A DNA stretch of 38,498 nucleotides from contig JANZYW010000013.1 of NCBI GenBank assembly GCA_026413325.1, positions 1 through 38,498 of the forward strand, written 5' to 3'. This DNA is from Bacteroidia bacterium (GTDB taxonomy: Bacteria > Bacteroidota > Bacteroidia > SpSt-205). The notes beneath the pieces were generated by a model, which worked only from the letters and a program-made list of their open reading frames with translations, had not been told where the DNA came from and did not search any database. Shown piece after piece: positions 1-33,543 of the stretch (position 1 is the first letter of the stretch; each line of letters starts with the position of its first letter). The translations under genes and the position numbers were made by a program.

Positions 1-1087
1 CATCTATAGTGTCCACCCGAAAAGGACCAGACGGTGGATCAAAAACTACAGGTATGGGAGTACTGGAGCCTAAAAGAGTAGGAATACCTCCTCCTGGAGT
101 GTAGGCCCAGGTAGAACTACTGGGGGTCTGTGGTAAACTATAGTAGTAGTTTCCCCCCGCATATACTGTATCAGGACCTATAATAGGAAGTACAGGGGGA
201 AGTGCTTGTATGCTAAGGGGAGGCGTTCTTAGAAGAAGCACTGAACAGCCACACTTCCGGTCGACTCCATATAAACTTACCGTATACGTCCCCGAAGGAG
301 AAAATGTAAGCTGAAAGGTATAGTTGGGAGGATTAGGAATGACCAGATTCGGAAAAACCTGCAGCGGACCAGAAGGACTGACAGGCTCAACATGAACGAC
401 AAAACTGTCGGGAAGGGTCGAGTTTCCCTGCTGCGAGAGAGAAATGGTAAAAGTGAGAGGTCTCCCCTCACAATGAGGATTGGGAGGGTTCGGAGGAGAA
501 ATAGAAAGAGTGGTAGAAGCACCTACCGCTGGGCAAAGAGCAAGGGTATCCGAGTTCCGCCAGAGGATCCGCCCTTTTATGCTTTGAAGCTGCGAGTTAA
601 GAACTGCCGCAGGTGTGGTATCCCACAAGAGCATGCTTTCCCTCTGCGGTCCGCACGCGAGGAGAGGAACCCGAAGCCCGATAAGGGTATCCAGTGTATC
701 TATCGCATCTCCTTGATACTGAGCATAGTTGATACTACGCCGAACCGTAACGTTGACCCGGGCACCCTCTACCGTCCATATGATAGGGTCGTAGTACGGC
801 GAAGAGTTGAACTTGTCTCTGTATATTTCTCTTACGACTCCCGGAGTAGTCTCGATACGAAGGAGAAGCGGATTGAAAAGAAAAGGAAAGTTAGAGGAAG
901 CCAAGGTATCGGTCGTACCTACAGTTGCCGTACGCGCCAAGAAGAGATAGATGTCGATTGAATCGGGGGCATTGCTGGAGCCACGCACATAGGATTGGGA
1001 GAAAAAAGCTCGATAATCCTGTTGGGCCAAAAGCAGTTGACCCGATACCCAGAGCCACAAGCCAAGCCAAAAGACCTTATTGCCCAT
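1..1087 (-). CDS. Secreted protein with possible cohesin-like module, 3' end cut by the window edge
   Basis: The minus strand is open from an ATG at 1087 to base 1 (362 codons), so the C-terminus lies outside the window. Residues 1-21 form a signal peptide (MGNKVFWLGLWLWVSGQLLLA, cut before QQDY). Residues of about 22-150 show the pattern of the beta-sandwich module common in Bacteroidota secreted proteins, with the phrase SSNFPFLFNP followed by a WTVEGARVNVTV strand. Proline-rich, Ig-like stretches follow. A T9SS tail would be expected beyond the edge but cannot be seen. The start overlaps the stop of the upstream gene by 11 bases, so it is the third gene of an operon that begins at 2602. 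The cohesin-like reading is inference; function is unknown. Confidence 0.8.
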   Translation of the reverse strand, partial: MGNKVFWLGLWLWVSGQLLLAQQDYRAFFSQSYVRGSSNAPDSIDIYLFLARTATVGTTDTLASSNFPFLFNPLLLRIETTPGVVREIYRDKFNSSPYYDPIIWTVEGARVNVTVRRSINYAQYQGDAIDTLDTLIGLRVPLLACGPQRESMLLWDTTPAAVLNSQLQSIKGRILWRNSDTLALCPAVGASTTLSISPPNPPNPHCEGRPLTFTISLSQQGNSTLPDSFVVHVEPVSPSGPLQVFPNLVIPNPPNYTFQLTFSPSGTYTVSLYGVDRKCGCSVLLLRTPPLSIQALPPVLPIIGPDTVYAGGNYYYSLPQTPSSSTWAYTPGGGIPTLLGSSTPIPVVFDPPSGPFRVDTID

Positions 1088-2069
1088 ATACGAGCGGGAA
1101 AATCACTGTTGTATTTTCGTGAGTGAGAGAGAGCTGGTAAATCCCCGCCGCCAGGGTAGCCGGGAGACGCAAATGCTCTGCAGTATTCGCTTGCGCCACA
1201 TAGGTTTTTTCATGCACCACCCGTCCCAAAATGTCTCTGAGAACTACTTGAACTGCTCCCTCCACTGGAGCTTGAATCCACACATCTCCCTGAGTAGGTT
1301 GAGGATATACCTTCCATCCACCGTAGAAAGAAAAAGTCTGAGAAGAAGCCCGCCACTCCACCGAGTCGGTGCTACCTTCAGAACCGCACACATGACGAAT
1401 GACGGCCCAGTATCGACCAGGTAAAAGAGGCTCCACGGAAAAACCGTTCCCAATAACCACCCCATCTCTATACCAGGTGATGGAGAGATTCTCAAGACGA
1501 AAGAACTCCAATCCTTCTGCGATAAGAAAACCAGATTGATACCGCACTGGCACCCTCCCGATAGAAGGACATAGATAAATAGGAGGTATGGCAGAGAAAA
1601 CGAATCGATGTTTGGCTGGCTGCAGGGGGGCTAAGACAATCTCCCCAGTCTCCATACCCCACCGAAGCCGAAGGGTGTCTCCGAAAGAACGGATAGGCAC
1701 TCTCCATCTCCCAACGCTCTCTCTGCCAGAACCTTGGAAAGCTTCTCCTGCCGGAGGAAGCTGCGAGAGAAGATTGAGGCTCACCCGGTGATTCCCCCCC
1801 TCTTCTCCCCGCTGAGTTAGGTACAAAGGCAAATATGTCGAAGAAAACGCTCCATCCCACCTTCCTCGCTCTGCTATAGATATCGAATCCCATTGCAGAA
1901 GTGCCGCTTCCCCTACCAATACGAAGTTTGCTCCGAGTGGAATCTCCGAAGCGGCACCTCTCCAGAAAAAGGCTACCTCTACGTAATCACCCCGTAGCTG
2001 TACTTCTGCCCACACCGTGTCCTGACTCCATAATAAGCAAGCACTAAGAAACACCCATAAGACTTTCAT
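1077..2069 (-). CDS. Secreted protein with cohesin-like module and T9SS type A sorting tail
   Basis: A 330-residue protein. Residues 1-21 are a signal peptide (MKVLWVFLSACLLWSQDTVWA). Residues of about 22-150 contain LGANFVLVGEAALLQW and later NHRVSLNLLSQLPP. This resembles the N-terminal beta-sandwich module of many Bacteroidota T9SS cargos, which is structurally cohesin-like; I assign it by pattern only. From about residue 250 the tail reads GGWKVYPQPTQGDVWI, then a strand with DILGRVV, then LAAGIYQLSL, which is the classic type A T9SS sorting domain. The protein is therefore expected to be exported and anchored at, or released from, the cell surface. It overlaps the upstream gene by 4 bases (ATGA) and the downstream gene by 11, so the three are surely co-translated. 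Substrate or partner is unknown. Confidence 0.85.
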   Translation of the reverse strand: MKVLWVFLSACLLWSQDTVWAEVQLRGDYVEVAFFWRGAASEIPLGANFVLVGEAALLQWDSISIAERGRWDGAFSSTYLPLYLTQRGEEGGNHRVSLNLLSQLPPAGEAFQGSGRESVGRWRVPIRSFGDTLRLRWGMETGEIVLAPLQPAKHRFVFSAIPPIYLCPSIGRVPVRYQSGFLIAEGLEFFRLENLSITWYRDGVVIGNGFSVEPLLPGRYWAVIRHVCGSEGSTDSVEWRASSQTFSFYGGWKVYPQPTQGDVWIQAPVEGAVQVVLRDILGRVVHEKTYVAQANTAEHLRLPATLAAGIYQLSLTHENTTVIFPLVYGQ

Positions 2070-2602
2070 AGATTTGTATGCAAAAGTAAGGACTGGTTCT
2101 TGAGAATAATTTTTTGATCCTCAACATCTACCCGAGCATCTCCATTAAAGTCGGCGAGGGAATCTTGAGTAGCCAGCGCACGGAGAAATAGCTCATAATC
2201 ATACGCATTGATGACGGGGTAAGGCTCTCCAGGTAAGCTCCCAAGCTCCCCTGCGGCCATATAGGCTCTCCCCTCTTTTTCTACGTACCCACATTCTCGA
2301 TGGAGCAGCTGAGGTTGAGCGAAGTCTAAAATCACTCCTTCCTCAACCTGAACGGGTTCAGCTAATCGAAGGGGTAAATACCCTGGAACAAATAGCAAAG
2401 CTTCTGCAGGAGAAGTCAAGGATGAAGGCACAGAAAGCTCTGCCGTAGCCTTACCTGATAGAAGGTGCCCTTTCAAATCCAGCATCCGCTCTCCTGTACG
2501 CAACACAAGCTGAAACGGAGCTTCCTGTCGAGCTTCCAAAAGAAATCTCACCTGGAAAGATTGTGCACATGCCCACGCAAGCCCTGCCCATATCCATCGC
2601 AT
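2066..2602 (-). CDS. Secreted protein with C-terminal dockerin-like calcium-binding segment
   Basis: A 178-residue protein that opens the three-gene operon. The N-terminus MRWIWAGLAWACAQ is a short signal peptide. Residues 15-110 look like a beta-rich domain. Near the C-terminus, INAYDYELFLRAL (a helix) is followed by ADFNGDARVDVEDQKII. Asp151, Asn153, Asp155, Val158, Asp159 and Asp162 fit the dockerin type I F-hand pattern DxNxDxxVxxxD. Only one complete loop is visible, where classical dockerins have two. No T9SS tail is seen. Because the next two genes appear to carry cohesin-like modules, a calcium-dependent surface complex is possible; that is inference. The ATG at 2602 lies 8 bases after a perfect -7 box. 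Confidence 0.8.
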   Translation of the reverse strand: MRWIWAGLAWACAQSFQVRFLLEARQEAPFQLVLRTGERMLDLKGHLLSGKATAELSVPSSLTSPAEALLFVPGYLPLRLAEPVQVEEGVILDFAQPQLLHRECGYVEKEGRAYMAAGELGSLPGEPYPVINAYDYELFLRALATQDSLADFNGDARVDVEDQKIILKNQSLLLHTNL

Positions 2603-2703: not shown

Positions 2704-4131
2704 ATGCGAATTCAACTCCTTTATCTCAGTGCCCTCCTCATGGGATGGGCTTTTGCGCAACCGACCGCCCGCCGCTTCATCGACCCCGTATTCTCACAAG
2801 TACAAGTCACGGAGAATATCCGCTATGGTGGTAATGTAGACTTTACGCAGGCCCCCACCGATCTCTATATGGATGTATACGAGCCAGCGGGAGATACCAT
2901 GGCTCGTAGACCCGTGATTATTCTCATTCATGCAGGCAGTTTCCTACCCCCTTCGATTGCGGGAGCGGCTTTTGGACGCATCCCGATCGGGACCCGAAAA
3001 GATTCCGGCATCGTAGCTTTATGTTATGAGTTTGCCAAAAGGGGCTATGTAGCTATTTCGGCCACGCACCGATTAGGATGGAATGCGCAGGCTACTACTC
3101 AAGAAGCACGCGCTCAAAGCATCATCCAAGCAGTGTGGCGAGCCACGCAAGATGGGAGAGCGCTCGTCCGCTTCTTACGGAAAGATGCCGCTACTACCAA
3201 TCAGTTTCGCATCGATCCCAATCGTATCGTGATGGGAGGATCTTCTTCTGGAGCTTATGTCGGCCTACACGTGGCTTACCTCAACTTACCTTCCGAGTTA
3301 GATCTTCCCAAGTTCAAACTACAGAATGGAACCCCCTTTGTGGATACTACCGCGCCTGGCATGGACAGAGGCACAGGGCCTGAGGCGGGTCCTAATGCAT
3401 TCGAAGGAGGGAGTGGGAATCCCGGCTATCCCTCTACCATCCAAGCCGTTCTCAACCTGGGAGGGGCTCTGGGCGATACCTCCTTCATTCAAAATGAAAA
3501 CGTGACTGTCATTTCTCTCCACGGCGTACAGGACCCTACTACGCCTTACTACAGCGGTGTAGTGGTCACTGCTGTGGGGAACTATCCCATCATCGAAGTC
3601 TTCGGAAGCCATGACCTTACCCAAAAACTTATTCAAAAGGGTAATCAAACCGCCTTGCTCCCTGACTTTGCGACAGATAATCCTTTCCCAGGCCTATATC
3701 CCTTCCAAGGAGCAGGATTTGAACCTTTCGGCTGGTACAGCAATAGTTCTAATACCGAAAAAGCCCGAGCCCGTAGATACATAGACACGATACTGACCTT
3801 CGCCTGTCCAAGGCTTTTCAAGACTCTCAATCTGCCTACCATCCTCATGCAGCCCACCTCCCTGTCCCAGTCTTTCTCAGCAGGCACGCTCTCTGTATTT
3901 CCTTCCCCCGCGGCTCAGCCCATCGTGACTATAAAACATCCTTCTCTCTCGATCCAACGCCTGGAGCTCTACAGCCCCATCGGTCAAAAGGTGGCCGAAG
4001 TCCTGCTTCCCTTCCCTACCTCCTCTTTTACATGGGAGCTTCCTCGCAGCTTACCCCGAGGTATCTACCTCATCCGAGTCTTCACGGAAATCGGAGCTCT
4101 CTCAAGCCGGTGGAGTTATGAAGGGCTGTGA
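2704..4131 (+). CDS. Secreted alpha/beta hydrolase (esterase-like) with T9SS type A tail
   Basis: A 475-residue protein. MRIQLLYLSALLMGWAFA is a signal peptide. The alpha/beta hydrolase domain covers about residues 35-375. It has an oxyanion segment VIILIHAGSF (the HGG-type motif, here HAG), the nucleophile elbow GGSSSGAY with Ser181 at the centre of GxSxG, a likely acid at Asp277 (HGVQDPTTPY) and a likely catalytic His303 (GSHDLTQ). This fits carboxylesterase/feruloyl-esterase-like hydrolases; the substrate is not evident. The last 80 residues (LSVFPSPAAQPIVTI, then YSPIGQKV and LPRGIYLIRV) are a T9SS type A sorting domain, so the enzyme acts outside the cell or on its surface. It appears to be a single-gene unit. 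Confidence 0.87.
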   Translation: MRIQLLYLSALLMGWAFAQPTARRFIDPVFSQVQVTENIRYGGNVDFTQAPTDLYMDVYEPAGDTMARRPVIILIHAGSFLPPSIAGAAFGRIPIGTRKDSGIVALCYEFAKRGYVAISATHRLGWNAQATTQEARAQSIIQAVWRATQDGRALVRFLRKDAATTNQFRIDPNRIVMGGSSSGAYVGLHVAYLNLPSELDLPKFKLQNGTPFVDTTAPGMDRGTGPEAGPNAFEGGSGNPGYPSTIQAVLNLGGALGDTSFIQNENVTVISLHGVQDPTTPYYSGVVVTAVGNYPIIEVFGSHDLTQKLIQKGNQTALLPDFATDNPFPGLYPFQGAGFEPFGWYSNSSNTEKARARRYIDTILTFACPRLFKTLNLPTILMQPTSLSQSFSAGTLSVFPSPAAQPIVTIKHPSLSIQRLELYSPIGQKVAEVLLPFPTSSFTWELPRSLPRGIYLIRVFTEIGALSSRWSYEGL

Positions 4132-4405: not shown

Positions 4406-5908
4406 ATGGAAGTAGGTAACTATCAGATCATAAGGCCTCTGGCTGAGGGAGGCATGGGTACGGTATGGTTGGCTCAACACACTCTTCTCGGGTACCCTGT
4501 CGTCATAAAGTCCCTCCATCCTCAATATGTCCAGCGGGAGGATCTCCGGCAGCGCTTTTTTACTGAAGCTCGCCTGCTCGCTCAGCTCCAGCACCCTTCT
4601 ATCGTACGACTCTATGATTTTACTATCCAGGACGGAGTTCCTTATATCATAATGGAGTATGTGGAGGGAAAGAGTTTAGATACACTTTTAGCTCGCAAAA
4701 GGGGGCTCCCCCTGAAGGCTACTCAACGTCTCCTTCTCCCTGTTTTAGCAGCGCTATCTTACCTACACGAGCGAAATATAGTACATCGAGACATCAAGCC
4801 CTCCAATATCATGGTCCTCCCCTCTGGAGAAGGGAAGCTAATAGATTTTGGTATCGCTAAATCGTTGCAGGAGGATTTACGCCTTACTCAAACGGGATTC
4901 CAGATAGGGACCGCTCTCTACATGGCTCCTGAGCAAATCCAGGGCCTCTCTGTTTCTCCTCGCACAGATCTCTATGCGATAGGCCTTATCGCCTATGAGT
5001 GCCTTTTCGGAAAATATCCCTGGGAATGGGAAGGATTGACCGCATTCCAGCTCTATCAGCGGCTACTTTCAGACCCTCCTTCTTTTCCTGAGTGGGCACC
5101 TCCTTCGTGGAAATCCTTTTTCCAACAAGCACTGGCAAAAAAGCCAGAAGAACGTTTCCCCTCTTCGGAAGAAATGCAAAAAGCCCTCTCAACCTTAGAA
5201 GAGTCGACCGAACAAGTCGCCTTTATCCATCCTACGCTCACTCCTCCCACGCTCACAGCCCTTCCCCTTCCTTCTCCTCCCCCTTCCCCTCCTCGAAAGA
5301 AGAAAAAATGGCTTTTTTTCCTCGTGGCAGCTCTATTACTCCTTCCCATCATAGGGATTACATTTCGATATGGATTTTTCTCTACGAAAGAGGAACCTGC
5401 TGTCTCCCCTCCCCCCGGAGCCTCTACCCCTCCCATGCAAAAAAACCACCACTCGAGAAGACTAAGAAAGGACTACAGCCCACAGATCCAAAAAGCCCTA
5501 TATGCCAAGCTCCTTGCCTATGCAGAGGAGCAAAACGCTATAGACTCCAATACTTCCCTTGTATGGGACACCTTGCCACAGAAAAACTACCCCATACGAG
5601 GAGAACTCGAGGTAGCCTTTCGCCGAAACTTCAGAAAGGAGGTCCAAGAAATGGAAGAGGCTATCTATCCTTGTTATGTCTCCAATATCCCCCTGGGACC
5701 TCCTCGAGGAGTCCAGACTGTAAAAAACTACTATGCCGTAATCTATCTGTGCGAACAAAGAGGAAAAGTCTCCATCCAATACACCTATGACCCCCTGAAA
5801 GGCGATATCGAGCTGTTCTTGTCCTCTTTCCCTCCCCCTGACGAAGATACTGTTTGTACCCAGACCTCTCGGGAACTGCTGCGTCAAGAAGAAGGCACAT
5901 GTGAATAG
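4406..5908 (+). CDS. Membrane Ser/Thr protein kinase (PknB/Hanks type), first of a tandem pair
   Basis: A 500-residue protein. The cytoplasmic kinase domain covers residues 6-262 and all key residues are present: glycine loop LAEGGMGTVWLA, Lys35, Glu54, HRDIKPSN with catalytic Asp129, DFG at 147-149 and APE at 174-176. It should be catalytically active. A proline-rich linker (about 270-296) and a KKKK stop-transfer signal lead into one membrane helix at about 301-320. The remaining 180 residues should be extracytoplasmic. They include a beta-rich segment GKVSIQYTYDP and three or more cysteines. No PASTA repeats are seen. This C-terminal domain resembles that of the next gene, so the two probably arose by duplication and sense related signals. 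Targets are unknown. Confidence 0.9.
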   Translation: MEVGNYQIIRPLAEGGMGTVWLAQHTLLGYPVVIKSLHPQYVQREDLRQRFFTEARLLAQLQHPSIVRLYDFTIQDGVPYIIMEYVEGKSLDTLLARKRGLPLKATQRLLLPVLAALSYLHERNIVHRDIKPSNIMVLPSGEGKLIDFGIAKSLQEDLRLTQTGFQIGTALYMAPEQIQGLSVSPRTDLYAIGLIAYECLFGKYPWEWEGLTAFQLYQRLLSDPPSFPEWAPPSWKSFFQQALAKKPEERFPSSEEMQKALSTLEESTEQVAFIHPTLTPPTLTALPLPSPPPSPPRKKKKWLFFLVAALLLLPIIGITFRYGFFSTKEEPAVSPPPGASTPPMQKNHHSRRLRKDYSPQIQKALYAKLLAYAEEQNAIDSNTSLVWDTLPQKNYPIRGELEVAFRRNFRKEVQEMEEAIYPCYVSNIPLGPPRGVQTVKNYYAVIYLCEQRGKVSIQYTYDPLKGDIELFLSSFPPPDEDTVCTQTSRELLRQEEGTCE

Positions 5909-5915
5909 GGCTCCT

Positions 5916-7586
5916 ATGTCGAACAGAATCGGTTCTTATGAGCTTATTCGGCTGATTGGAGAGGGGGGGATGGGAAAAGTGTACCTGGCACATCACCTTC
6001 ATACAGGTGGATTTGCCGTGGTTAAGGCTCTTCTCCCTCAATATGCACAAAATGAGCAGATCGTCCAGCGATTCCACGCTGAAGCCCGCCTCCTCGCGCA
6101 ACTAAGGCACCCAGCGATTGTAACTTTATATGACTTCTACATACAGGATGGAGTACCCTATCTGATTATGGAATACGTGGAAGGCGAATCGTTGGATAGC
6201 CTTCTGCAACGCACCCCAGAAGCCTTAGGATGGGAATGGGCAGTGAACCACCTAAAGCCTATTCTGGAAGCTTTAGAATACGTCCACAGCCGAGGCATTA
6301 TTCACCGAGACATCAAGCCCTCCAATATTATCCTCTCTACGGAAGGGAAAGCCAAACTCTTAGATTTTGGAATAGCCAAAGTACTCGATCAGGACCTTCA
6401 CCTTACGCAAACGGGGCACCAAGTAGGCACCGCCTTGTACATGGCCCCAGAACAAATCCGAGGACTTCCTGTTTCCCCCCAGACCGATCTCTACGCAATG
6501 GGGATCATCCTCTATCAGTGCCTTTTGGGAAAGTATCCCTGGGAGTGGCGAGACAAAAACCAGTTTCAAATCTACGAAATGCTGCTGAAAGAACCAGCTC
6601 CCCTTCCTCGCTTTCTACCTCCTTCCTGGAGGCTATTTTTCGAACGGGCGCTGGCAAAGGACCCCTCAGAACGATTTAACTCAGCTAAAGAGATGCAAGA
6701 AAGCCTCGTCCAGCTCCAGAGAGCTGACTCCTCTTTTGACAAGTCTCCCTCCCTTTCTGATACAAAGGCTACTTCTTCTCTTGAACAGACCTCCTCTCCC
6801 CCGCCAGCTGTCCGAAAAATCTCACCGTTCTGGAGAGAAACCCTGCTAATGGCAGGCGCATTCCTCACTGCCGCACTGCTCTACCCGCCCTTGGGCATAT
6901 TAGGTTTCGTCACTTGGGGCGGAGCTACCTATACCGCTCTAAAAGCTTTTTTCCTCTCAGGAAAGAAGAAACGAATAGCCCTCCTTTCCTCTGGCTTTAT
7001 TTTATGCCTTCTCGGCTACTTCTACTTGTACGCTTGGCCTACGGCAAAAAAAGCCTACGAAAAAGAACAAATGATCTTCAGTGCTCTGGAAGCAGAGCTC
7101 TACCGGTATCAGACCACCTACAAGGAGTCTTCTACACAGCAAAATGCCACTCTAACCATAGAATCCCTACCTGTGCCCGAAGGCATCATGAGCCGAAACC
7201 TTTCCCCTCAGGAAGTTCTAATGGTACTTTTCCTTCGTGCCCCTGTGCTTTATCAGGAAGAAGGAAGCCTTACTCAACGGGCAGAAGTTCATCGAGTTAG
7301 GCTACGTCGAGGAGCGCCATTCCGAAAAGAGGTAGAATGTACGGTTCGATGTGGATTTTTAGGGCTGAGAACCTGCTATGGATATCAAGAGGTCTGGTAT
7401 GTCCCAACCTGGGAAGAAGACTGCCTATCTAAAGGAGTAGTTCATATCCAATACGAGTACAATCCCGAAGAGGAGAAGTTCACCTTCTTCCACGTGGAGC
7501 TGCCAGAAAGCTGGGAAACCCACTGTACCAAAAAAGAGGGTACCGAACGCCACCTTATCGAATATGTTTCCCCCTGTTCCTATTGA
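5916..7586 (+). CDS. Membrane Ser/Thr protein kinase, second of a tandem pair
   Basis: A 556-residue protein from the ATG at 5916. A GTG at 5901 would add five residues and overlap the previous gene, but MSNRIGSYELI aligns better with the start of the first kinase. The kinase domain has IGEGGMGKVYLA, Lys37, HRD with Asp132, DFG with Asp150 and an APEQI segment, so it should be active. Two or three hydrophobic segments follow (about residues 305-345 and 352-375), where the first kinase has one. The C-terminal domain ends with GVVHIQYEYNP and paired cysteines, parallel to the first kinase's GKVSIQYTYDP. The gene lies 7 bases after the first, so they share an operon. Its last 7 bases overlap the convergent MATE gene. 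Confidence 0.9.
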   Translation: MSNRIGSYELIRLIGEGGMGKVYLAHHLHTGGFAVVKALLPQYAQNEQIVQRFHAEARLLAQLRHPAIVTLYDFYIQDGVPYLIMEYVEGESLDSLLQRTPEALGWEWAVNHLKPILEALEYVHSRGIIHRDIKPSNIILSTEGKAKLLDFGIAKVLDQDLHLTQTGHQVGTALYMAPEQIRGLPVSPQTDLYAMGIILYQCLLGKYPWEWRDKNQFQIYEMLLKEPAPLPRFLPPSWRLFFERALAKDPSERFNSAKEMQESLVQLQRADSSFDKSPSLSDTKATSSLEQTSSPPPAVRKISPFWRETLLMAGAFLTAALLYPPLGILGFVTWGGATYTALKAFFLSGKKKRIALLSSGFILCLLGYFYLYAWPTAKKAYEKEQMIFSALEAELYRYQTTYKESSTQQNATLTIESLPVPEGIMSRNLSPQEVLMVLFLRAPVLYQEEGSLTQRAEVHRVRLRRGAPFRKEVECTVRCGFLGLRTCYGYQEVWYVPTWEEDCLSKGVVHIQYEYNPEEEKFTFFHVELPESWETHCTKKEGTERHLIEYVSPCSY

Positions 7587-29522: not shown

Positions 29523-32500
29523 TCACCTCAGCAGAGATACCGTACCCGCCCGACTAAAGGTGCGAAAACGTATCAAATACACATAGGCCCCTTCGGGCAA
29601 ACGCTCCCCCGCTCTGGTTCTCCCATCCCACTGAAAAGGAGCAACTCGAGTAGAGTATAGCTCCGTGCCCCACCTATCGTATATAATCAGCTCCTGGATG
29701 CATTCCGGAGAGCCTAAAATCCGAAAAACATCATTTATGCCATCCCCATTAGGTGAAAATACATTGGGAATGAAAAGTGCTCTGGAAATAGCCAAATCAG
29801 AATCTAACGCATACCGAAAAGTATCCACACAACCTTCCTGGTCAATATATACGACCTCGACTCTATAAACTTGCGGATGAGAAAGGGGTACACGAACACG
29901 TATCGTGCCTGGCGGATATACAACACCTCCAACCTCTACCCTCAAGACACGCTCCGAGGGTATATCCACATAAAAATCTATCCACAAAGCACAGAGATCC
30001 GCTTCCCACCGAAGGGAGTCTAACCCCCGACGCCGAGGTACGTCCACCACCCCAACTAAAGTATCTCTACAGAATGAGAGACCTCCCGGGTTTGTAACCA
30101 ACTGCCAGGTATATGTGCCAGGAGCGGGAGCAATCCACACTATCGTGTCCCCGCGCTGACTTTGCCCCTCGATTTGCCATTCCACTTCATTGGCAAATCG
30201 ACTGCGAGACACAAATATAACCCGTTGTCCACAGGTATCTACTCGAACCTCAGCTCTCGCCTCAGAAGAAAAGTCCACTTCTATCTGCCGAAAAATCGTA
30301 TCTGAACACAAGCTATCCGGAGAAAAGACTATCAAACGGACTTCATACGTACCCGGTTGACTATACACATGCAAAGGAGAAGGTTGAGAACTGGTAGCCC
30401 CATCCCCAAACTCCCAAAAGGTAAACCCTGCTCCAACCGAGCTATCCCAAAACTGAACTGTCAACGCACAATAATCTATCTCTATGCGAAAATCTGCCCG
30501 CACCGAACGTGAGACCTGTATAGACTGCCTCAAGGTATCCGAACAGCCTAAACTATCGAACACCACCAATGTCACCTGATATGTCCCCGAAGCAGGAAAC
30601 TGATAACTGGGCGAAAAATCGAATACGGTGTCTCCCGTGCTGAAAACCCATACATGGGAAATCGCACCTACAGACTGATTGGTAAAAGTATAACGCCCCT
30701 GACAGCTGTCGCCCGTCCAGGAGAAATCCGCTCTCGTCAGAGAAGTATTGGCCACCACAAACTGGGCAAAAGTGTCTCGACAGCCTCGAGGGCTGGTAAC
30801 AACGAGCTGAACATAATACGAACCCGCTGCAGCATAGGTATGGACTGGAGAAGGAAGCGCACTACTCTGTCCATCTCCGAAGTTCCAGCTGTATTGCATA
30901 CCCGGAGTGGTATCTCGTGGAAAGAACGTCACGCGCCTATTGCAGTCCGTCTCCCAGGTAAAATCCGCAGAGGGAGGAGGATCTACCGTAATCGTACGAC
31001 GAAGGGTATCTCGCTGATTGCAGGTAAAGAGATTCTCTGCTACTAAAAGCAACGTATACGTACCCGGCTGGGTATAAGTCACAGGGCCCGGATTCGCTGC
31101 CGTTGAGGTTTGGCCATTCCCAAAATCCCAGTAGTAGGTGGTACCATTTTGGCTCAGATTTTGAACTGTCATGGTAAAAGGGACACATCCCCGAGAAGGG
31201 ATAAGAGCAGCAGCGGCTACCACTGGATCTCCCAGCTGAAAGTCTATCTTGAAAAGTGCATTATTACAGTTCGGGCTATTGTTTGTATTAGAAATGGCGC
31301 CAGGGGTAGTAGGGAAATCAGAGTTTCCTCCGCAACCTCCACAGACAGATTGATATATCACCCCCCGGTTGTCAAATCGACTTGTCCCTCCATCTACATG
31401 CTCCTCCGAAAAGGGCCCTCCCCAAAAGGAAGCATATGCCAGGCCCGAAAGGGCCGGCTCAAAAGCAATTACATAAAAATCAGCCCCATCTGTTGTAGTT
31501 TGATTCGCATTCGGCGTCGTAGGGAGACCCAAGGTAGAACCATATACACCCGTTCCTACATCGAGCCCCCCCCAACCTGAAACATACACATATCCGCAGC
31601 GGTCAGCCGCAAAAGCACTAATGGTGATATTGGGAGTAGGACGTCCAGCTGAACCCCATACGGAGAGGCGGGTCACTTGGGAAAGGGAGTCATTCATCGA
31701 GAAAACAAACTGTTTCCGACCAGCAAAGCCGTAAGCACCTGGGGTAGGAGTCAATACCCCTTCGGTATGGCCTACACCCCATAAAAGCCCCTGTCGGTCC
31801 AAGTCTATCATAAACACCTGATCATACGCAGCAGTACCCCAGTAAGTAGAAATAAGGAGCTGAGAAAGGGTAGGACTCAAAATAGCCAACCAGCCATCCG
31901 CCCGCCCTCCTTGATAAGAAGGTTGATAGCTGCCTGGTGTCGTGGGGAAGTTAGAGCTATTAGTGCCCCCTGCTACATAAACCCCCCCCCCAAAACCTAT
32001 CCGAATGGAATAGCCCGCATCAGCTCCACTGCCCCCTAAATAGGTACTGGCATATAAGCGCCTTAAGTCCAGCGACAGCATACACACTACCGCATCCATA
32101 CCTCCCCTTAGGGTGGTCTGATAAGCCCCTGCCGTGGTCGGGAAGTTAGAGGAGCGGGTGGAAGAAATAAGATAACAAGCGGTGTCCCCCACGACAATCT
32201 CCCCTCTCCCATCATCCGCATAGAAGTAATACAGGGGGTATACGCGGCTGTTCAGTCCATCTTCACCACTTCCGCCCAGATAAGTACTTCCTAAAAGCTG
32301 ATTTCCTGCACTATTGATCCAGCTCACCACTATGTCTATATTCCCACCAGAAACAGGCTGGAAAGCACCCAGCGTGACCGGATAATCCTGAGAACGGGTT
32401 GCTCCCAATACATAGAGATTTCCTTGGGGGTCGGTAACCAGACTATGGGGCTGCTCATTGTCACTACCCCCGAGATAGGTAGCCCACAAACGTACTGTCC

Positions 32501-33428
32501 CAGTCGGGTTAGTTTTCCATAGAGCAATATCCGTGGCCCAGAAAATCGGTTGATTGCTTCCATAAGAAACCCCTCCACCGAAAGTACCTTGCAAAGCTCC
32601 CGGAGTCACCGGAAAATAGACACCCCCCGGATTCCATTCCCACTGATTGTCGTTTACATTTCCCCCACTGATGGCGTTCCCTTGCAAATCGTACGTAGCA
32701 GTGAAACCCCAGTTGTCTGAGAATGAACCAGAATAAGAAGAAAACACCACCACAGGGTCGATGACTAATGGACCGCTGACCGAAGCAAGCAGTTCATAGC
32801 GGACGGTAGTTCCTTCTAAGAAATAACGAGCAGGTAATGCAGTAGAATCCCCTTCCAGGTATACGAAGGGGAGACGCTCGGTAAAAGTCCCTATACTGGT
32901 CTCCATCTGCAAAGAGTCTCCTTTCACAGAAAGAGAGACACCTTCATATTGTAGCCGAATGCGTCGAAGCGCTTCAGGAGAACGCACATGCCAGTCCCAT
33001 TTCAGGCCTGTGGAGGTCATACGAAAGCACACATCCACCCCCGGATACACTCCCCTATACCATACCCTATGAAAACCTTTCACATCTACCGCTCGCCAGG
33101 GGCCCTGGAAAAAGTTATAGAGCGTAGGTTCGGCTTCCTCCCCGTGTGGCTCCGTATTTTGCCCTCCGACCCATCGGATACGAACAAAATGGGCCCTTAC
33201 CACCTGGGGCGGCCCCCACCGCTCAAAATGCGCCTTACGAAAAGGGGTATCATCCACCAAAAGGAGAGCTACCCCTTCAGGAGTAAGATAAACTCGATGC
33301 GGCCCCCACGCCGACTCGAAACGGGCCTCAGGATATATCTGTCCCTTATTTTCTACAAAAGTGCCTCCATGTCGAGCCCAGACTATCCCCTGCACAAACC
33401 CCACAAGTCCTATTATGCCGAACCGCAT
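29523..33428 (-). CDS. Large surface protein: SBBP repeats, PKD domains and T9SS type B tail
   Basis: A 1301-residue protein from the ATG at 33428 (3 bases after a -7-like box); an upstream GTG-type frame is not needed. MRFGIIGLVGFVQGIVWA is a signal peptide. Next comes the ENKGQIYPEARF N-terminal domain seen at the start of many Bacteroidota cargos. The middle (about 220-680) has repeated beta-propeller SBBP units of the form YLGGSxxEQ...DPQGNLYVLGAT. Then come about five PKD domains (for example YYWDFGNGQTS, YSWNFGDGQSS, FWEFGDGATS). The last 85 residues (FIPNVFSPNGDGINDVF, then YDRWGTELY and LPEGAYVYLI) are the T9SS type B (CHU_C) sorting domain. It is probably a gliding or adhesion surface protein. 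Confidence 0.92.
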   Translation of the reverse strand: MRFGIIGLVGFVQGIVWARHGGTFVENKGQIYPEARFESAWGPHRVYLTPEGVALLLVDDTPFRKAHFERWGPPQVVRAHFVRIRWVGGQNTEPHGEEAEPTLYNFFQGPWRAVDVKGFHRVWYRGVYPGVDVCFRMTSTGLKWDWHVRSPEALRRIRLQYEGVSLSVKGDSLQMETSIGTFTERLPFVYLEGDSTALPARYFLEGTTVRYELLASVSGPLVIDPVVVFSSYSGSFSDNWGFTATYDLQGNAISGGNVNDNQWEWNPGGVYFPVTPGALQGTFGGGVSYGSNQPIFWATDIALWKTNPTGTVRLWATYLGGSDNEQPHSLVTDPQGNLYVLGATRSQDYPVTLGAFQPVSGGNIDIVVSWINSAGNQLLGSTYLGGSGEDGLNSRVYPLYYFYADDGRGEIVVGDTACYLISSTRSSNFPTTAGAYQTTLRGGMDAVVCMLSLDLRRLYASTYLGGSGADAGYSIRIGFGGGVYVAGGTNSSNFPTTPGSYQPSYQGGRADGWLAILSPTLSQLLISTYWGTAAYDQVFMIDLDRQGLLWGVGHTEGVLTPTPGAYGFAGRKQFVFSMNDSLSQVTRLSVWGSAGRPTPNITISAFAADRCGYVYVSGWGGLDVGTGVYGSTLGLPTTPNANQTTTDGADFYVIAFEPALSGLAYASFWGGPFSEEHVDGGTSRFDNRGVIYQSVCGGCGGNSDFPTTPGAISNTNNSPNCNNALFKIDFQLGDPVVAAAALIPSRGCVPFTMTVQNLSQNGTTYYWDFGNGQTSTAANPGPVTYTQPGTYTLLLVAENLFTCNQRDTLRRTITVDPPPSADFTWETDCNRRVTFFPRDTTPGMQYSWNFGDGQSSALPSPVHTYAAAGSYYVQLVVTSPRGCRDTFAQFVVANTSLTRADFSWTGDSCQGRYTFTNQSVGAISHVWVFSTGDTVFDFSPSYQFPASGTYQVTLVVFDSLGCSDTLRQSIQVSRSVRADFRIEIDYCALTVQFWDSSVGAGFTFWEFGDGATSSQPSPLHVYSQPGTYEVRLIVFSPDSLCSDTIFRQIEVDFSSEARAEVRVDTCGQRVIFVSRSRFANEVEWQIEGQSQRGDTIVWIAPAPGTYTWQLVTNPGGLSFCRDTLVGVVDVPRRRGLDSLRWEADLCALWIDFYVDIPSERVLRVEVGGVVYPPGTIRVRVPLSHPQVYRVEVVYIDQEGCVDTFRYALDSDLAISRALFIPNVFSPNGDGINDVFRILGSPECIQELIIYDRWGTELYSTRVAPFQWDGRTRAGERLPEGAYVYLIRFRTFSRAGTVSLLR
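31982..31991 (-). repeat. Ten-base homopolymer within the surface-protein gene
   Basis: Ten cytosines on the plus strand, read as G10 on the coding strand, encode part of GFGGGVYVAG. Such a run is prone to slippage by one base, which would break the reading frame. Confidence 0.7.
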
Positions 33429-33431
33429 AAT

Positions 33432-33439
33432 CGAAAATA
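33432..33439 (-). promoter_or_regulatory. -7 promoter element of the large surface protein
   Basis: On the minus strand TATTTTCG (one mismatch from TAnnTTTG) ends 3 bases before the ATG at 33428. This is the shortest gap in the window and supports that start. Confidence 0.5.
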
Positions 33440-33543
33440 CGACTTTTTCTTTAGTCTCCCCTTGCACAAGATGAGAAGACCTTTTCTTATTCCGGGCATT
33501 TCACCATCCACCGACTAAGATTGGGCGCTTGAAGGAAAGCCGA

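Follow-up and report, generated by a model that had tools for sequence, protein, structure and literature searches.

At the left end of the window, that is, the whole stretch of DNA analysed (38,498 nucleotides, the entire contig G000:C40 of a 2.19-Mb genome), lie three minus-strand open reading frames (ORFs), here named A, B and C. Gene A (2602..2066, minus strand) encodes 178 aa with a signal-peptide-like start, a small beta-sandwich and a C-terminal dockerin-type module; gene B (2069..1077, minus strand) encodes 330 aa with a head of predicted cohesin fold, a middle with weak Ig-like matches and a type A T9SS signal; gene C (1087..2, minus strand) is open at the window edge, where the contig end cuts the ORF after the first 362 aa. 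The stop of A and the start of B share an ATGA overlap of 4 bases (2066..2069, minus strand), and the end of B overlaps the start of C by 11 bases (1077..1087, minus strand). A preliminary description had placed three overlapping genes for signal-peptide proteins here, and both parts of it hold: the ORFs and their overlaps are as given, and all three N-termini read as hydrophobic and signal-peptide-like.

The gene order A-B-C is kept in relatives. Where both genes are visible, A and B overlap by 4 bases in six of seven relatives and by 8 in the seventh; B and C overlap by 11 bases in all eight. A scan for promoters and terminators ahead of A found nothing. Divergent from the operon, a gene for an esterase of the BD-FAE family occupies positions 2704-4131 (plus strand; 41.9 bits against a cut-off of 26.8), and judging by position and N-terminal sequence a BD-FAE-like gene is at the same place in 8 of the 11 family genomes with the upstream side visible; its presence beside the operon hints at a carbohydrate link. 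Further on (4406-7586, plus strand) are two tandem genes resembling eukaryotic-type Ser/Thr kinases, in which an HRDIKPSN motif was read by eye; together with a PAS-SpoIIE phosphatase gene at the far end, seen in relatives, they flank the surface operon.

The dockerin-type module of A

The dockerin-type module comprises residues 116-178 of A (2069..2257, minus strand) and has a non-canonical first loop and a canonical second one. The second calcium loop, Asp151 to Asp162 (2117..2152, minus strand), had been singled out as dockerin-like, and it is as described, with both aspartates invariant across the nine aligned A orthologues. The first loop is lengthened and non-canonical in the window's genus and canonical in one genome of another family (G046). 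Conservation in the A alignment is concentrated at this end, with 25 of 36 invariant columns falling within the last 68 residues. The dockerin-type loops would presumably bind calcium.

Searches with Dockerin_1 (PF00404) gave a divided result. For window A itself, Pfam gives nothing at E<=1, whereas seven of the nine aligned family members match Dockerin_1 at that level and one of the nine (L013) exceeds the curated cut-off (24.6 versus 22.9 bits). Against solved structures, a profile of A from the genus alone yielded five weak matches (E 0.16-2.3), all of them dockerins or dockerin-bearing chains; a tail profile of 19 sequences, with other families added, matched cellulosomal dockerins (4fl4_A, 3e-8; 1daq_A, 5.4e-8; the next at 5e-7). 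That A ends in a dockerin-type module is thus supported by profile comparison.

The structure model of A is moderate (mean pLDDT 70.2) and bears out only part of this: helices are modelled at residues 133-145 and 160-168, yet pLDDT is <50 at 119-133 and 170-178, within the dockerin-type module. A Foldseek search with A placed X-module-dockerin chains at ranks 1-3, 5 and 6, with every E above 1e-3. The preceding sandwich (residues 14-115; 2258..2563, minus strand) is transthyretin/carboxypeptidase-regulatory-like and resembles the X-module that precedes some dockerins, on structural matches that are weak to middling: in a finer alignment, the front half of A matched a DUF4876 protein best (Z 7.0, a middling value), followed by several transthyretin/carboxypeptidase-regulatory-like domains, and X-dockerin reached only Z 4.7.

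Cohesin-type heads in B and C

For B, the structure model (from 11 sequences) is good, with a mean pLDDT of 90.5, and residues 15-170 (1560..2027, minus strand) are predicted to have a cohesin fold. Foldseek ranks the C. perfringens GH84C cohesin-FN3 construct 2w1n first for B (E 2.1e-6). In a second structural comparison, of residues ~15-170, ranks 1-35 were all cohesins, the best being 4uyq_A (Z 13.4, rmsd 2.7, 138 of 143 residues, 9% identity); that of Archaeoglobus (2xdh) is among the matches listed. Carbohydrate-binding modules are absent among the best 50 structural matches of B that were listed, and may occur lower down. The suggestion that the second protein is cohesin-like, made from pattern alone, is thereby strengthened at the level of modelled structure.

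Sequence searches did not follow suit. The cohesin model PF00963 has no match in the window's own genome and, run against 19 heads, matched one (E 0.013), below its curated cut-off; an NCBIfam search did not recognise the head as a cohesin, and a PDB sequence search with the heads reached cohesins only at a non-significant E of 1.3-1.5. Because the PF00963 cut-off was not reached, the heads are called cohesin-type here and are not filed under that family. When the B heads were compared by hhalign with PF00963 loci of Bacteroidia (25 of 30 fetched loci), there was no signal, 33 of 100 shuffles scoring as well, and with more sequences P was 0.36. The C heads, by contrast with the B heads, gave P 8.7e-5 (Prob 60) and all heads together P 2.6e-4 (Prob 42), which is only suggestive of a relationship to PF00963 cohesins.

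The head of C (residues 19-176; 560..1033, minus strand) is homologous to that of B by profile comparison. With relatives included, 12 B heads and 9 C heads aligned at Prob 99.66 (E 2.4e-25), in keeping with the beta-sandwich pattern that had been noted in both the second and the third protein. Within the genus alone the relationship is marginal (1 of 100 shuffles reached the score), becoming clear once relatives are added. A B-only HMM matches the window's C head (3.7e-7), a C-only HMM matches the window's B head (3.4e-6), and one place in an outside genome (G059:C41) was found independently by the B-head (E 2.3e-7) and C-head (0.00225) profiles, each run on 295 genomes. By this homology, C too would have a cohesin fold.

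These results leave room for a different account, in which the heads are beta-sandwiches of the cohesin/CBM fold with a structural or glycan-binding role and the tails are calcium-stabilised ends, the two being encoded together as parts of the cell surface and not binding each other. The cohesin fold is common to carbohydrate-binding modules, the heads fail the Pfam cohesin model and the PDB sequence search, and a BD-FAE family esterase adjoins the operon in the window; yet the top 35 structural matches are cohesins throughout and the tail profile matches true dockerins. We regard this account as unlikely, also in view of the joint recurrence of heads and tails described below.

Protein C and the barrel gene downstream

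Full-length C orthologues are ~906-1098 aa long, a range that excludes an 810-aa reading frame in L014/L028, and carry Ig/PKD repeats followed by a type B T9SS signal (CHU_C). The excluded frame belongs to a C orthologue (G008; L028 10962-13767) present as two overlapping reading frames of 810 and 143 aa, and the split is probably an assembly frameshift. CHU_C is present in 8 of 10 aligned C copies; the copies that lack the signal are expected to be the truncated one of the window and the 810-aa frame of L014, both of which stop short of that end. In a test of C as a type B substrate, TIGR04131 scored 34.8 against a cut-off of 35. A search of the window's own genome for the rest of C returned merely weaker, paralogue-like matches. 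Elsewhere in the window, a 1314-aa ORF (29523-33467, minus strand) is similar at its end to the part of C that carries CHU_C (E 2.8e-13) and may encode another type B-like T9SS protein.

Past C, the gene order in relatives continues with a PorP/SprF-like barrel gene (D), the PAS-SpoIIE phosphatase gene and a formiminotransferase-like gene, beyond which LpxD/LpxC-like genes were recognised by reading of the sequence. PorP_SprF was matched by the gene after C in all three cases scanned (50.6, 113.6 and 112.1 bits). The C-terminal Cys-X-Cys of SprF is lacking in all 11 D barrels, so a static anchor is the likelier role for D. A gliding adhesin on an SprF track, considered as a candidate, was set aside on the same 11 tails.

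Distribution within the family

The relatives include Bacteroidia bacterium MAGs (isolates KatS3mg025, KatS3mg026, SKYB, SKYG and SKW77) and one labelled Sphingobacterium sp. RSWP8; from their names, several of the MAGs presumably come from hot springs. Among 60 genomes, a search with A (E<=1e-3) gave matches in 9, every one a member of the window's family: the window's own genome, 7 of the 10 others of the genus and the single genome of a sister genus. B occurs in all 12 family genomes, the G001 copy being a fragment at a contig end, and C in the window's genome plus 9 of the 10 others of the genus. Contigs end inside B in G001 and G011, and one starts inside B in G009.

Two genomes, G007 and G010, lack A and retain B and C, and no remnant of A was detected in the DNA ahead of B in either. 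A dockerin-type tail match was nevertheless found at least once in each of the 12 family genomes. Nine of them, all of the genus (G000, G002-G007, G009 and G010), encode a larger dockerin-tailed protein, E, which is ~1540 aa where complete and is cut in the window's genome (L021, G000:C15, 3-3218, 1071 aa). As read from this copy, E is a large secreted protein whose C-terminus repeats the sandwich and dockerin of A; paralogues of ~1600 aa exist in G002:C34 and G003:C81 (L101, L102). Since E is present in G007 and G010, the B and C heads there may partner E. The notion of a dockerin-cohesin pair in the preliminary description therefore stands as to the identity of the modules and is too narrow as to number, given E within the genus and proteins with both modules elsewhere.

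Other families of Bacteroidia

A mixed head profile was searched against 396 Bacteroidia genomes, each at least 80% complete, and matched 18 (E<=1e-3); 10 of these belong to the genus and the other 8 do not. The eight outside genomes hold 12 head loci, and the neighbourhood of each was read. At seven loci in seven genomes (G046, G059, G153, G157, G240, G287 and G340) a dockerin-type tail gene is beside or within the head gene; at one (G306) the adjoining gene has a weak tail match (0.2); at the other four (G059:C38, G240:C7, G340:C37 and G340:C7) no tail gene lies in the stretch examined. The tail HMM was built with four of the outside tails (G059, G240 and two of G157), which match it by construction. 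An HMM of A from the genus alone finds the outside tails of G340 (5.7e-14), G240 (6e-8) and G059 (1.6e-5); those of G157, G287, G046 and G153 were not significant with it. Compared as profiles, genus and outside tails align at Prob 95.5 (E 1.5e-8), with a score of 59.7, where the best of 50 shuffles reached 19.75.

The gene set itself recurs in these families. The order is A-B-X-C-PorP/SprF-SpoIIE in G157 and C-PorP/SprF-SpoIIE-like in G340. X denotes proteins of 838-1485 aa that combine a cohesin-type head with a dockerin-type tail at the end (L146 3244-5760; L155 7385-11842; L157 5887-8559; all minus strand); the head at the start is clear in G340 and weaker in G287 (0.00052) and G157 (0.052). 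In control sets (36 regions in total, with a domain threshold of E<=0.1 for heads and tails), 75 ORFs of six other regions gave no head or tail match, and the 64 ORFs from 30 PF00963 loci had neither a head match nor a tail domain at that threshold, although two of these loci came near with dockerin HMMs (best domain 0.16). That tails and heads recur together across families, in some cases joined in one protein, argues against mere co-residence of non-binding sandwiches.

T9SS signals on heads and tails

The end of B (residues 249-328; 1086..1325, minus strand) is a type A T9SS C-terminal signal by TIGR04183 (31.6 bits, cut-off 23), and in structure comparison this end is similar to DUF3244 (Z 11.6); with the Pfam T9SS tail the window's copy scored 26.0 against a cut-off of 27. 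Por_Secre_tail is found in 10 of 11 B orthologues, and all four outside B proteins scanned match a T9SS CTD at E<0.01, one of them over the cut-off. On the dockerin-tailed side, Pfam detected a T9SS CTD in none of 22 proteins (nine A, P0001, three E-type and nine from other families) and NCBIfam in none of 10. The T9SS signal is thus usual on cohesin-headed proteins and undetected on the 22 dockerin-tailed ones scanned. The tie to T9SS that had been proposed for the locus is upheld by the B signal, by CHU_C in 8 of 10 C copies and by the same gene set elsewhere.

Alternatively, A could be a periplasmic, chaperone-like helper of export or folding, whose dockerin-type end holds the B and C heads ahead of T9SS passage and which takes no part in a surface structure. 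A is translated first, from overlapping genes, and has a signal-peptide-like start and no CTD, all of which would suit such a helper; two genomes keep B and C without A, however, and the same tail ends the large E (~1540 aa) and X (838-1485 aa) proteins, which are unlikely chaperones. We therefore hold this role for A to be improbable.

Discussion

A, B and C are probably the opening genes of a conserved operon that encodes a T9SS-anchored, non-cellulosomal cohesin-dockerin assembly at the cell surface. The basis is a conserved gene order, the identities of the modules, CTDs on the headed proteins and no detected CTDs on the tailed ones; from it we infer plug-socket binding and a surface position of A, E and X. 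B and C would cross the outer membrane via T9SS, to judge from their CTDs. The type A CTD of B would lead to anchoring on LPS or to release; C has a type B CTD, and the PorP/SprF-like barrel D, whose gene comes directly after that of C, would export C and hold it. The N-terminal cohesin-type heads of B and C would be the putative sockets, and the dockerin-tailed proteins without a CTD of their own (A, E in the same genome and X elsewhere) the putative plugs; having a socket and a plug at opposite ends, X could lengthen the chain as an adaptor scaffoldin does. A might stay in the periplasm, as its only export signal is a Sec-type start. Counting against this reading are the PF00963 and PDB sequence misses, pLDDT <50 in parts of the dockerin of A, the absence of A from G007 and G010 and the four of 12 outside loci without a tail gene in the stretch examined.

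If the surface assembly is real, the operon would give a clue to the way in which Bacteroidia assemble several proteins into surface structures, to what is displayed by type B CTD proteins and their PorP-like barrels, and to possible routes to the surface for proteins that lack a T9SS signal. A bolder version, which we put forward tentatively and think rather unlikely, makes the dockerin a borrowed secretion ticket: A, E and X would dock on the B and C heads in the periplasm, be carried folded through T9SS and remain on the surface, forming a chain that is fixed to the PorP-like barrel and in which X is a link. Such a mechanism, if true, would mean that CTD-less cargo has a general way out by non-covalent attachment and that T9SS builds a scaffold similar to that of a cellulosome.

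Cohesin and dockerin modules are best known from cellulose-degrading machines, the cellulosomes, and few non-covalent contacts known between proteins are as strong as theirs. The surface assembly proposed here resembles the cohesin-dockerin and X-module-dockerin arrangements of Clostridia cellulosomes in the predicted cohesin fold of B, the dockerin-type tails and the sandwich plus dockerin of A, and X proteins combine head and tail as cellulosomal adaptor scaffoldins do. It differs in having one head per B or C, without tandem cohesins, in its Gram-negative T9SS anchoring and in a first dockerin loop that is non-canonical in most tails. Pfam accepted no catalytic domain on the tail proteins scanned; with no enzymes on these and no tandem heads, a cellulosome was rejected as a candidate.

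Non-cellulosomal cohesins and dockerins are reportedly known from Peer et al. 2009. The non-cellulosomal modules of C. perfringens glycoside hydrolases and of Archaeoglobus sit on enzymes or loose proteins; the present operon shares with these pairs the single heads and tails and differs in tying the modules to T9SS and a PorP/SprF-like barrel. In the Bacteroidia, PF00963 cohesins were found in 33 of 198 genomes, 23 of them over the cut-off.

A cellulosome-like system is described for Candidatus Stygibacter (Cloacimonadota), with dockerin proteins and a cohesin scaffoldin that has a conserved C-terminal surface-attachment domain (PMC8542988). Both systems would have dockerin proteins with a surface-attached cohesin partner; Ca. 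Stygibacter has tandem cohesins, CBMs and dockerin enzymes, whereas here the heads are single, no enzymes were found and the genes form an operon (PMC8542988). A paper on T9SS cellulases states that it identified neither cohesins nor dockerins, in line with other Bacteroidetes genomes (PMC5831590), and by word search neither term appears in a review of T9SS effectors (PMC10202324). A search of the open literature, with subscription papers outside its scope, found no paper on the operon or the head family.

As regards anchoring, proteins with a type B CTD are held at the surface by binding to PorP-like barrels, and those with a type A CTD are tied to LPS (PMC9143113). A CHU_C-bearing C orthologue with a PorP_SprF gene directly after it parallels SprB-SprF and PG1035-PorP (PMC9143113, PMC12618676); unlike these, C begins with a cohesin-type head and shares its operon with dockerin proteins. 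SprF itself is tied to the gliding track by its C-terminal Cys-X-Cys (PMC12635249), and in the D barrels, which lack this motif, a tie to the track is not indicated.

Cohesin-dockerin pairing has mostly been discussed for cellulosomes; here, the putative sockets sit on T9SS substrates and the putative plugs on their CTD-less partners.
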